A DNA stretch of 34,806 nt from Deltaproteobacteria bacterium. GTDB lineage: Bacteria > Desulfobacterota > Desulfobaccia > Desulfobaccales > 0-14-0-80-60-11. Every line of letters starts with the position of its first letter. Position 1 is the stretch's first letter. The stretch is taken from assembly GCA_030655955.1 (NCBI GenBank), contig JAUSOZ010000282.1:1-34806 (forward strand), read 5' to 3'. Below, piece by piece: positions 180 through 34,806 of the stretch. The translations under genes and the position numbers were made by a program. The notes under the pieces are model-generated. The model had not been told where the DNA came from. It was given only the letters and a program-made list of their open reading frames with translations, and did no database searches.

Positions 180-286
180 CTGAGACCACTTCGCAGTCAA
201 TTGGTGGCACAGGCTTTAGCCTGCGCCGGCGCAGGCTAAAGCCTGCGGCTACCAATAATTACTTTTTGATTGCAACTCGGTATGAG
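180..286. repeat. MITE-like element A: degenerate inverted ends around a 36-bp perfect palindrome
   Basis: CAGGCTTTAGCCTGCGCC/GGCGCAGGCTAAAGCCTG at 210-245; right end TTTGATTGCAACTCGGTATGAG (265-286) resembles 5078-5099; left end CTGAGACCACTTCGCAGTCAAT (180-201) is more degenerate. Confidence 0.6.
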
Positions 287-461
287 ACGGCCTCCGGTAT
301 TCATCCTCACTCCGGTTTTTGCCGATAAAACCTGGCAGGCGCCACGGCTTTGTCTCCACCATGGCCGCCACACGGTTTCCTCCCGGCCCCAGGAGACGTT
401 GCCGGGGACGGGGCATCTTGGAAAGTTTTTATAAATAGGCGGCGAGGCTTTTTATGTTATA

Positions 462-476
462 GTCAAGTCACTTGAC
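462..476. promoter_or_regulatory. Perfect 7-1-7 palindrome GTCAAGTCACTTGAC just downstream of a -10-like TATAGT; candidate operator for the kinase gene
   Basis: Palindrome read directly; TGT-TATAGT at about 456-463; no convincing -35. Confidence 0.35.
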
Positions 477-560
477 CCGGGAGCCGGGTCTTGCCCCGCC
501 CCCCACCCGGCGGGGCCGGCGCCACCCGGCGCGGTCAGTTGCGGTTGAGGAGCCATAGAG

Positions 561-3500
561 ATGACAAGGACGTCGTTCGACCCGCCCCTGGATCTTCTGG
601 AACGGCGGTTTCAGGCGCTCCGGGACCAAATCGAGGCCATGCCCGAGGCCTGCCGGCCCGAGTTGGAGGGGGCTCTGCAGGAACTCTCCCAGGCCATCGC
701 GGCGCTGCGTCAAGGCCTGGAGGCCGGGGAAAACCCGCAGCCAGAACCCCCAGGCGGCCGGGAGGCCCAAGCCGGCCAAGGGAGTGAAAGCAACTCGCCC
801 ATGAGCCCGGAGGCGTTACCGAACCCCTGCGAGGCCATGCTGCGCCACGTCTTCAACGCCATTCCCGATCTGCTCACCGTCCACGACCGCGACTTCAACA
901 CCATCATGAGCAACTGGCATGGGTACGAGTCTCTCCCGGAGGCGGAGCGCCGCGGCCAGCCCAAGTGCTACCGGGTTTATCATCACCGGGACCGCCCCTG
1001 CGAGGACTGCCATGCCCCGGAGGTCTTGGCCACGGGTCAACCTGTAAAGGTGGAGAAAGTTAATCCTGTGGATGGCCGGGTCCGGGAAGTTTCAGCCTAC
1101 CCCATCCGGGATGAATCCGGCCGGGTGGTCCTGGTGGCGGAGCACGTGCGGGACATCACCGACCGCCACCTGGCGGAGCAGGCCCTGAAGGAGAGCGAAG
1201 GCAGATTCCGGACCCTGATCGAAGACAGTCCGGAATCGCTGTTACTGACCGATGTCCAGGGGACCGTCCTGGCTGCCAGCCGGGTAGCAGCCGGGAGGTT
1301 GGGGAAAAATTTAGAAGAGATCATCGGGGCCTTATTGTTCAACCTATTCCCCCCGGAAGTGGCTGCTCACCGCCGGCCCTTCTTTGACCAAACCGTTGCC
1401 ACCGGGCGACCCGTCCGCTTTGAAGACGCCAGGGGCGACTTGCATTTCGATGTTCACATCACTCCCATCCTGGATGCAGACGGGAAGGTGTCCAGGCTGT
1501 CTATTCTGGGCATAGACATTACGGACCGAAAAAACGCCGAGCAGGCCCTGAAGGAGAGCGAAGCGCGCTTCCGGGCCATCTTTGCCACCGCCCAGGATTC
1601 CATCTTCATCAAGGACCGGTCTTTCAGGTATACCCAGGTCAATCCCGCCATGGAGCGTATCTTTGGTCGGTCTGCCGCCGAGATCATCGGCAAGACCGAC
1701 CTGGACCTGGTGGGGGCGGCAGCCACGGAGCGTATCTGGAAGCAAGACCGGCGGGTGCTGAACGGTGAGGTGGTGAAAGGGGCCCATACCGTCACGGTGC
1801 AGGGCGTGCCCGTCACGTTTCATTATATCAAGGCTCCCCTGCAAGACGAGGCCGGGGAAATCGTGGGAATTTGCGGCATCGCCCGGGACATCACCGACCT
1901 GAGGCGGGCGGAGGATGCCCTGGAGGAGAGCGAAGAACGCTTCCGGATGCTCTTTGATCATGTCCCGGATGCCTATATTCTGGCGGACATGCTGGGTGAG
2001 ATCATCGATTGCAATCAGGCGACGGAAGAGTTGGCCGGGTATGGCCGGGAAGAGTTAGTGGGCAATAATTTCGCCTGCCTGCCCTGGCTGGATTTCCGGC
2101 AACAAGTCAGGTTGGCGGACCTCCTGGCCCAAACCGCCCGGGGGGAAGTTATGGGGCCGGTGGACTTCACCCTAACCCGCAAGGACGGGGGCGAAGTAAT
2201 CGCCGAAGGCATGAGCCTGCCGTTATCTATCCAGGGACAGAATTTGGTGCTGACCATTGTCCGGGATATCACGGCCCGGAAGCAGGCGGAAGCGGCCTTG
2301 CGGGAGAGCGAAGCGCGCTTCCGGCATATTTCGTCCACCATTTCCGACCTATCCTATTCCTGCACGGCCGGGCCGGACGGCAGCTATGCGATTGATTGGC
2401 TGGCGGGCGCCGCGGAGCGCATCACCGGTTACTCGGTGGAGGAGATCCAGACGCGACACTGCTGGGATTTTCTGGTGATCGAGGCGGACCAGCCCGTGTT
2501 TGAACAGAACATCACCGGCCTGGCCGCCGGTTCCTCCGGCGCCTGTGAACTGCGCCTGCGCCACAAGAACGGCGGCATCGTCTGGGTGGCGTCTTTTGCC
2601 AAACTCGTCCCGGATCCGGAGCAGCCGGGGTTTCTCTCTATATATGGCGGGTTGGTTGACATCACCGCCCGCAAGCAGGCCGAGGAGGCCCTCAAAGAGA
2701 GCGAGGAGCGCTATCGCACCCTGTTCGAAGCCTCCCCCGACGCCATCACCGTGATGGATATGGAGATGAACTTCGTCATGGGGAACCGGCGCGGGTTGGA
2801 GCTCTGGGGGATAGATAGCCCGGATCAGACCGGGTCCAGAAAAGCCATGGAATATATAGTGCCGGAGGACCGGCCCCTGGTCATGGCGGCTATGCAAGAA
2901 TTGATGACCACTGGCCGGACGCAAACTTTTGAGACCACCATGCTGAAGCCAGACGGCTCCCGGTTCCCCAGCCTCAACAGCGCCGCCTTGATCCGGGACA
3001 CTGCGGGCCGGCCCCAGGCCGTCTTCGGGATTGCCCGGGACATTACCGAACTCAAGCAGGCCGAAGCGGGAATGCGGGAGAGCGAGGAGCTATTCCGCTC
3101 CCTGGTGGATCACATTACCCTCGGTATCACTTTGATCAGTTCTGACTATCGTATAACCATGACGAACCCGGCTCAGGGAAATCTGTTCCACAAGCATCCA
3201 CGCGAGTTTGTTGGCAAGGAATGTTTCCGGGAATTTGAAAAGCGACCGGCGGTTTGCCCCCATTGTCCCGGGGCGATAGCCATGGCCACGGGCCAGAAGG
3301 CGGAGGTTGAAACCACAGGCGTTCGGGACGACGGCAGTTCGTTGGTGGGTCGCGTCCTTGCTTTCCCGAGTTTTGGCCCGGATGGCGAGGTCAACGGTTT
3401 TATCGAAGTGGTGGAAGATATCACCCAGAACAAGCAAGTGGAAGTGGCGTTGCGGGAGAGCGAGCAGCGGTTCCGGCTCATGGCCGAGACCATCCAGGAC

Positions 3501-5000
3501 GTCTTCTGGATCGCCAGCCGGCGCATCGGCAAAACGGTGTATGTGAGTCCGGGGTTCGAGTACATCTGGGGCCGGACCCGCGAGGCATTGTATCGCAATC
3601 CAAAATTATATCTGGAGAGCGTCCATCCGGAGGATCGGGAGCGAGTCAAGAGTGAAATTATCGCCGCCAGGGAGGGAGGTATCCCCTGGGACCACGAATA
3701 CCGGATTATCAGGCCGGACGGCGCGCTGCGTTGGATTCTGAACCGGGGGTTCCCGGTCCGGGACGACCAGGGCATCGTCACCCTGTTTACCGGGGTGGCT
3801 ACGGATATTACCGAGCATAAGGCCCTGGAGGGGCAACTTCTCCAGGCCCAGAAGATGGAGGCGGTGGGGCGGCTGGCCGGGGGGGTGGCCCACGATTTCA
3901 ACAATCTCCTGATGGCCATCACGGGCTACGGCGAACTTATGCGGGCCAAGGTCCTCAAGGATGACCCACTTTACGGCTACCTGGAAAATATTCTGCAGGC
4001 CGGCGACCGGGCCGCGGCTCTGACCCAGCAGTTGCTGACCTTTAGCCGCCAGAAGATCGTCCACCCCGAGGTGATCGATCTCAACCGGGTGGTTCTGGAC
4101 CTGGAACCGATGCTGCGGCGGCTCATCGGTGAAGACCTCGACCTGGAAGTCGTCACAGACCCGAAGCCGGCGGCCGTGAAGGCGGACCCCGGCCAGATGG
4201 GCCAGATCATCATGAACCTGGTGGTGAACGCCAGGGATGCCATGCCCATAGGCGGGCGGCTCACCCTGAAAACCGCGGCGGTCGATCTTACAGAGGGCCG
4301 TCACAGCAGGTTCGGGCTGGCGCCGCCGGGAGCTTACGTGATGCTGGTGGCGCAAGACACCGGCGACGGCATGGATGAAGCCACCCAGGCCCACGTCTTC
4401 GAGCCGTTCTTCACGACCAAGGAACAGGGCAAAGGCACCGGCCTGGGACTGTCTACCGTGTATGGGATCGTCAAGCAAAGCGGTGGTTACCTCGACCTGG
4501 AGAGCGCACCCGGGGGCGGCAGCACCTTCAGCATCTATTTGCCCCGCCTGGAGGCGATCGTTGTACCACCCAAGGCGAAGATCCCCATCACCGCCAGCTT
4601 CCGGGGGGAGGAGACGGTTCTGCTGGTGGAAGACGAGGACGTGCTCCGGAGCTTGCTGGCCAAGTTTTTGCGGCTCTATGGCTACACGGTGCTGGAGGCC
4701 CGCCACGGCGGCGAGGCTTTGTTGACCTGTGAACGACATCAGGGGCCGATTCACCTGATGGTGACCGACGTGGTGATGCCTCAGATGAGCGGCCGGGAGT
4801 TGGCCGATCGTCTCAGCCCCCTACGCCCGGAAATGAAAATTATCTACATGTCGGGCTACACCGAAGACGCCCTGGTGCAGCACGGCGTGGCGGATTTATC
4901 GGTGGCTTTCCTCCAGAAGCCCTTCAGGCCGATAGAACTGGCGCGCCGGGTGCATGCCGTCCTTCATCCTCCGGTAAGTCATACCAAGTTGCCGTCATAA
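561..5000 (+). CDS. Multi-PAS hybrid sensor histidine kinase with C-terminal receiver domain
   Basis: 1479 aa; repeated linkers ([70 protein letters not shown]); H-box [16 protein letters not shown]; ATPase motifs DTGDGMDE and [13 protein letters not shown]; receiver VLLVEDED...[11 protein letters not shown]. Confidence 0.95.
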
Positions 5001-5099
5001 AGGTAATTCTGGCTTTATGATCGCAACCCCCGTAGGGGCGGTTCGCGAACCGCCCCTACAATTCGGATTATTACTTGTTTGACGGCAACTTGGTATCAG
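4978..5099. repeat. MITE-like element B: 17-bp perfect terminal inverted repeats around the 28-bp palindrome
   Basis: ATACCAAGTTGCCGTCA (4981-4997) and TGACGGCAACTTGGTAT (5080-5096) are exact reverse complements; palindrome at 5032-5059. Confidence 0.85.
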
Positions 5100-5221: not shown

Positions 5222-5455
5222 CGGGCCTTTCACTTCGTCCATCAATGGCGTAAAATCTGGTAGGGCGGGCCGCTGCGCCCGTTTTGGTGGCACAGGCTTC
5301 CAGCCTGTGCGCCGCACCGGCAAGATGCCGGTGCCACCAAGAACTTTTCAAGACAGTTGCGCAAGGGCCTTCGGTTCACTCGTAAAACATGAAAAGTCTG
5401 GTAGGGCGGGCACTGCCCGCCCTACGCAAGCACAGGGGAGACGCCTGTGGCACCG
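5222..5455. repeat. Cluster of GC-rich palindromic intergenic repeats
   Basis: TCTGGTAGGGCGGGC occurs twice; GTAGGGCGGGC-ACT-GCCCGCCCTAC at 5401-5425; GGTGGCACAGGC...GGTGCCACC near 5286-5338; AACTTTTCAAGACAGT (5342-5357) is the reverse complement of the tag at 1-17. Confidence 0.7.
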
Positions 5456-10317: not shown

Positions 10318-10411
10318 GTAGGGGGGGACCCATGTGTCCCCCCTTGAGGGCGCACACATGGGTGCGCCCCTACGTTTTGACAGTAAATTTTTGACCGCCA
10401 CTTGTTATCAG
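10318..10411. repeat. MITE-like element C (partial): GTAGGGG...CCCATGTGT...CCCCTAC core with one recognisable end
   Basis: Core 10318-10373; right end TTTGACCGCCACTTGTTATCAG (10390-10411) matches 5078-5099 at 19/22; left end not convincingly found. Confidence 0.55.
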
Positions 10412-34689: not shown

Positions 34690-34806
34690 CTGAGACGAAG
34701 TTGCAGTCAAAAAACTATGAAAATTCATGTCATTCTGAACGGAGCGCAGCGGAGTGAAGAATCTCGGCGGCTTTAGAGGAGAGATTCTTCGCTGCGCTCA
34801 GAATGA
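34690..34806. repeat. MITE-like element D (cut by window end): shared 22-bp end plus TTCTGAGCGCAGCGAAGAATCTC-type palindrome
   Basis: CTGAGACGAAGTTGCAGTCAAA (34690-34711) matches the other ends; TCATTCTGA...GAAGAATCTC...GAGATTCTTCGCTGCGCTCAGAATGA is an imperfect inverted repeat at 34730-34806. Confidence 0.7.

Follow-up and report, generated by a model that had tools for sequence, protein, structure and literature searches.

The spread of REPs, and the presence of many REP families in each genome, is an open question that is usually answered by RAYT activity alone. A REP inside a single MITE is already known from Coxiella burnetii, where QMITE2, a MITE of 150-190 bp, contains a GTAG REP and has truncated copies that resemble plain REPs; it has one core, makes 7-11-nt duplications and belongs to one species (PMC5896051, reviewed in PMC10969869). 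In Anabaena variabilis, a constant inverted repeat surrounds many of the GTAG-15 REP dimers, and that genome yielded no empty copy of the scaffold (PMC3733652, section 7). That section treats them as REPs inserted in palindromes, not as MITEs, and contains no analysis of target-site duplications (TSDs) or empty sites. BrickBuilt of Porphyromonas gingivalis is a MITE with a minisatellite (PMC4596501).

The window analyzed here, 34,806 nucleotides long, spans contig C275 from end to end, in a draft genome of 3.5 Mb and 323 contigs. An earlier note on this DNA had proposed a MITE family with a common end and unrelated cores, and this was borne out: the elements are MITEs because they show TSDs, empty sites and high genome-wide counts. 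Like QMITE2, they hold a REP within a MITE, but in place of a single REP core and a 7-11-nt duplication they have many unrelated cores, a 3-bp TNA duplication and a distribution over several phyla. The GTAG-15 scaffold described in section 7 of PMC3733652 has a different end (TATAGGA..) and one core per scaffold, whereas many cores share the end studied here. RAYT/REP systems, BIMEs and REPINs resemble the cores in consisting of paired hairpins, several with a GTAG foot, that lie beside RAYT genes (core classes B, B2, D and G; PMC2817692, PMC3116915, PMC3733652), but the REP pair here sits between DDE-type ends that leave a TNA footprint. In BrickBuilt the interior is another repeat class, as in the cyanobacterial copies with tandem repeats described below; unlike the elements here, it has a single, non-REP interior. 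In the literature searched, most subscription journals lying outside it, we found no account of a single MITE end combined with many REP cores, and a text search for the end sequence returned chance strings only, apparently primers. Such a combination appears to be new, and one class of jumping DNA appears to carry another.

Elements in the window

Six end sites and four palindromes had been noted in the window, and all were found at the positions given, to within a few bases. The sites are real, although they had not been assembled into elements: 180-286 is one complete element and 4978-5099 is another. The copy at 10318-10411 has its right end but lacks the left, and the copy at 34690-34806 has an intact end and is cut by the contig. 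The features are as follows.

21-48, no strand: A core palindrome outside any TNA MITE, in a different repeated scaffold (about 1-120)
181-285, + strand: complete B-type element (184-282) with identical TSDs TGA at 181-183 and 283-285; left terminal inverted repeat (TIR) 184-201, BIME-like core 203-253 (GGTGGCACAGGC..GCCTGCGGCTACC), right TIR 265-282
561-5000, + strand: PAS-repeat histidine kinase ORF, 1479 aa, with its stop TAA (4998-5000) within the A element
4979-5098, + strand: complete A-type element (4982-5095) with TSDs TCA at 4979-4981 and 5096-5098; left TIR 4982-4999, core GTAGGGGCGGTTCGCGAACCGCCCCTAC 5032-5059, right TIR 5078-5095
5284-5340, no strand: B-class REP pair without TNA-MITE ends, adjoining a scaffold copy at 5341-5395
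10318-10410, + strand: D-type element without left end; core 10318-10373 (GTAGGGGGGGACCCATGTGTCC..GGGTGCGCCCCTAC), right TIR 10390-10407, TSD-like TCA 10408-10410
34691-34806, + strand: C-type element truncated where the contig stops; TSD TGA 34691-34693, TIR 34694-34711, core from 34729 (GTCATTCTGAACGGAGCGCAGCGGAGTGAAGAATC..); same 143-145-bp subfamily as loci L012, L025, L029, L071, L074 and L086

The A element is inserted in the last codons of the kinase gene, and the reading frame enters the element and ends at the element's TAA. In an alignment of orthologues, the C-terminus reads PVSHTKLPS* here and PVSQ* in the sister species.

The scaffold around 21-48 has its second copy at 5341-5395 (repeat I1: 55-105 vs 5345-5395, 78%). 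This second repeated scaffold (CTTTTCAAGACAG / TTTTCATGGTTTACGGGTGGGCCAAAGGCCCATG; 1-120 and 5260-5400 of the window) likewise bears differing cores, the A palindrome and the B-class REP pair.

Ends, footprint and the search for a transposase

The TIR of the elements is TACCRAGTTGCNNTCAAA. Only an end of ~18-30 bp is constant, and in many copies a conserved AGTA motif, read by eye, lengthens TACCRAGTTGCNNTCAAA to about 30 bp. The 22-bp end was matched 88 times genome-wide at no more than 3 mismatches, compared to no matches for the same pattern read backward and none in 100 shuffles of the window. A chance origin of the ends was ruled out by these two controls. Genome counts rest on pattern searches and fetched stretches, and the copy numbers are underestimates because assembly contigs often begin or end inside elements. 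Examples of contigs that start or stop in elements are C81, C156 and C311 of G000 and C116 and C164 of G003.

Paired ends delimit short, non-coding, multi-copy elements of 70-250 bp, and the length is fixed in each subfamily: 114 bp in A (core GTAGGGGCGGTTCGCGAACCGCCCCTAC), 99-100 bp in B (GGTGGCACAGGC..GCCTGCGGCTACC; at least six copies in the genome), 119-125 bp in D (GTAGGGG(C/G)GGACC..GCCCCTAC) and 143-145 bp in C (GTCATTCTGA..TCAGAATGAC). Rarer subfamilies are also present. Subfamily B has, in addition, a 191-bp form with another palindrome nested inside; in two such copies from this genome (L083 and L104), the B core is split by a repeat that itself contains the A palindrome. The earlier note allowed that it would be mistaken if the ends were no more frequent than in shuffled sequence or stood at no consistent distance from a core, and both are contradicted, by the excess of ends and by the fixed lengths, respectively.

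The same three bases flanked both ends in 127 of 183 non-redundant pairs, whose partners had been picked by end similarity alone; shuffling gave a mean of 38 and a maximum of 56. Every other duplication length was seen in 0-7 pairs. A 1-bp or TA duplication was rejected, as the enrichment is found at exact length 3 alone. The duplicated target is TNA, with C/T favored before it and G/A after it (YTNAR), and the elements carry TIRs and TSDs together.

Mobility was evident from empty sites. The A element of the window is absent at the orthologous kinase site in three genomes of the same genus (G001, G002 and G003), and neither G001 nor G002 has any of the D insertion (10318-10410) at the end of the orthologous gene. 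When joined flanks were searched in relatives, the A copy L002 had gapless empty sites in three species, a gapless empty site was likewise found for the C copy L012, and a B copy (L020) had a precise, gapless empty site in G003 at 95% identity. L029 and L093 provided further support across small gaps.

Another MITE (L128) lies near the orthologous site of the window's D element, after about position 2500 of contig C20 in G001. It has ends TACCGTGTTC, an apparent TAA duplication and a GTAGGGGCGGGTTTCAAACCCGCCCCTAC core, and represents a second end family of the same design.

Elements of the IS5/IS1031-like group target TNA, and the elements here share their 3-bp TNA duplication. The cognate enzyme is therefore probably a DDE transposase of the IS5/IS1031 kind, which is our best guess from the target. 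A transposase or RAYT with matching ends, suggested by the earlier note, was looked for without success. No autonomous element with these ends was found in this genome or in any fetched relative, in searches of draft genomes, and no cognate transposase was found among PF01609, PF13359 and PF13340 hits or beside unpaired ends. DDE_Tnp_1 was searched in this genome and nine others without a match to the ends, and DDE_Tnp_4 gave no hits in eleven genomes. DUF4096, also searched in eleven genomes, returned IS5 elements with TNA but with GAG ends. These served as a positive control: DUF4096 IS5 elements of Moorena and Nostoc showed TTA, TAA and TCA duplications and perfect 14-bp ends. The DUF4096 and DDE_Tnp_1 (IS1031-like) elements of Moorena and Nostoc thus make the same 3-bp TNA duplication, but the ends of the IS1031-like elements found begin GAG(G/C).., and no IS5-type transposase was found between TACC/GACC ends. 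In 113 GTDB loci, the ORFs next to unpaired ends gave no match; judged by eye, the ten longest candidates look like ordinary genes.

Core palindromes and RAYT genes

All 41 TSD-bearing copies in this genome enclose a core of a REP/BIME-type class; the classes were assigned by degenerate patterns, and the A copies match D-like patterns too, owing to similar outer stems. Across the order there are at least nine core classes. Further unrelated palindromes within the same ends in relatives are of the GTAGGGGCGTGATTTATCACGCCC, GTAGGGGCGGGGTTTCCCCGCCC, GGGGCGAACCTTGTGTTCGCCC, CCCTCTCCC..GGGAGAGGG and AAATCCCCC types.

The earlier note had raised the possibility of hairpin elements within a common scaffold. 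This agrees with what was found, since the cores are REP-type palindromes, also occur alone and, in four classes, lie beside RAYT genes. The A palindrome is present at 106 sites in the genome. Of 51 sampled contexts, 16 were an intact MITE scaffold, 13 were the second repeated scaffold, and the others were a third scaffold or had no repeat. The A core therefore has many copies outside the MITE, in several flank contexts, as a REP does.

Y1/RAYT genes were present in this genome and in all eight relatives searched. Compared to a background palindrome density of 0.10/kb, B, B2 or G palindromes were found on both sides of RAYT genes at several loci (L113, L327, L329, L335-L339 and L343), and the D palindrome was found inside and behind the RAYT gene in two (L116 and L341). 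In these four classes (B, B2, D and G), the cores thus act like the REPs of RAYT systems. The A core was not seen beside a RAYT gene and the C core was seen on one side only (L334), so that neither flanked a RAYT gene on both sides. In L116 (contig C15 of this genome, 1481-1830) and also in L341 (G018), the D-type REP lies in frame in the RAYT gene and encodes the peptide GAHMGAPLQ, and a second REP copy ends the gene.

The exact end was also found in Nostoc, Brasilonema, Moorena, Scytonema, uncultured Cyanobacteria and one Accumulibacter MAG, again with TNA duplications. A plasmid search with the 30-bp end showed that cyanobacterial plasmids bear these elements as well and gave nothing beyond such cyanobacterial MITEs. 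Inside the cyanobacterial copies lies another hairpin (CAGTCGCAATGAC type), a run of short G-rich tandem repeats or, in copies of 70-91 bp, next to nothing, and the Accumulibacter copies have an unrelated non-REP interior. Because these REP-less copies (70-98 bp) exist, the ends alone define the element and the interior is dispensable. The cyanobacterial TNA MITEs at L163, L166, L253, L267 and L290-L292 have as their interior an array of short G-rich tandem repeats that varies in copy number.

How cores and ends came together

Within this genome each core type goes with its own variant of the end (CGGCAACTTGG in A, TTGCAACTCGG in B and CTGCAACTTCG in C), and most subfamilies consequently look like single captures that were then amplified. 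Between genera, a given core can sit in different arms, with at least two arm sets for C and at least four for D, so capture recurred. Two chimeras were also found: L077 and L100 each join the left arm of another scaffold to an A core and an A right arm. The A scaffold carries GAGCGC-type loop cores in G002 and G003 (L153 and L031). These chimeras and loop variants show that recombination at the palindrome happens, as a minority pattern.

The elements are probably non-autonomous DDE-type MITEs whose ends are mobilized in trans, whose interiors have been replaced by REPs and which have been amplified as units. We infer that a DDE transposase supplied in trans would recognize the ~18-30-bp inverted ends, insert the element at TNA and duplicate 3 bp. 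The interior would not be needed for recognition and could be replaced repeatedly, in this genus and order nearly always by a REP/BIME-type palindrome. A REP would land in the MITE, possibly by RAYT insertion, or recombine into it, and the REP-loaded MITE would then be amplified as one unit, giving subfamilies that each have a set length and end variant. From time to time, recombination at a shared palindrome would swap arms or core loops. REPs would thereby gain a second, DDE-driven route of spread. That an empty MITE came first and the REP later is suggested by the Cyanobacteria and Accumulibacter copies, because no core-less copy was found in this order. Alternatively, two ends may have come together de novo around a REP, since some arms bear no trace of an ancestral MITE interior.

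The earlier note had also suggested cassette-like exchange, in which the core would be a frequent site of recombination or gene conversion and cores would swap continually between scaffolds. The chimeras, the loop variants of the A scaffold and the presence of one palindrome in several scaffolds are what such exchange would produce. However, end variants and arms track the core type within a genome, no orthologous locus with swapped cores was found, and the B element near the kinase in G002 sits at a different TNA site. We therefore consider ongoing exchange unlikely as the main process; it is seen in the minority formed by the chimeras and loop variants. A stable partnership or hyperparasitism between two transposition systems is conceivable but doubtful: RAYT-type REPs would load actively and repeatedly into one widespread TNA-MITE scaffold, or the MITE would need a hairpin core, so that REPs of many RAYT lineages would be dispersed by one DDE transposase across the order.

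Two other explanations dispense with a DDE transposase. The REP-type cores, together with RAYT genes in all genomes searched for them, could mean that a RAYT moves these elements, which would then be REPINs or RAYT elements whose ends are unusually long. This is very improbable, being contradicted by the 3-bp TNA duplications; neither these nor the precise empty sites are a known product of single-strand Y1 transposition. Moreover, the REP-less copies have the same ends, and the RAYT flanks in this genome hold REPs but no TIR, apart from one weak hit with 4 mismatches about 1.4 kb away at L116. It is likewise very improbable that the elements are immobile regulatory hairpins, such as terminators or mRNA stabilizers, whose structure converged under selection. 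Their palindromes are strong, two of the window copies lie at gene ends, and the only match of the window in Rfam is a tRNA, but copies at unrelated loci have the same sharp ends, together with TSDs and empty sites, which contradicts this explanation, and the same end is found in three phyla. A secondary regulatory role is possible.

These data show that REP-type palindromes move as cargo of MITEs with a DDE-type footprint and empty sites. One MITE end with interchangeable interiors is common to Desulfobacterota, Cyanobacteria and Accumulibacter, and repeats clustered by core or by end fall into different, conflicting families. The set of interiors amounts to a natural experiment on the benefit, if any, that a MITE draws from a hairpin. 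Spread on MITEs would explain REP copies without a RAYT.
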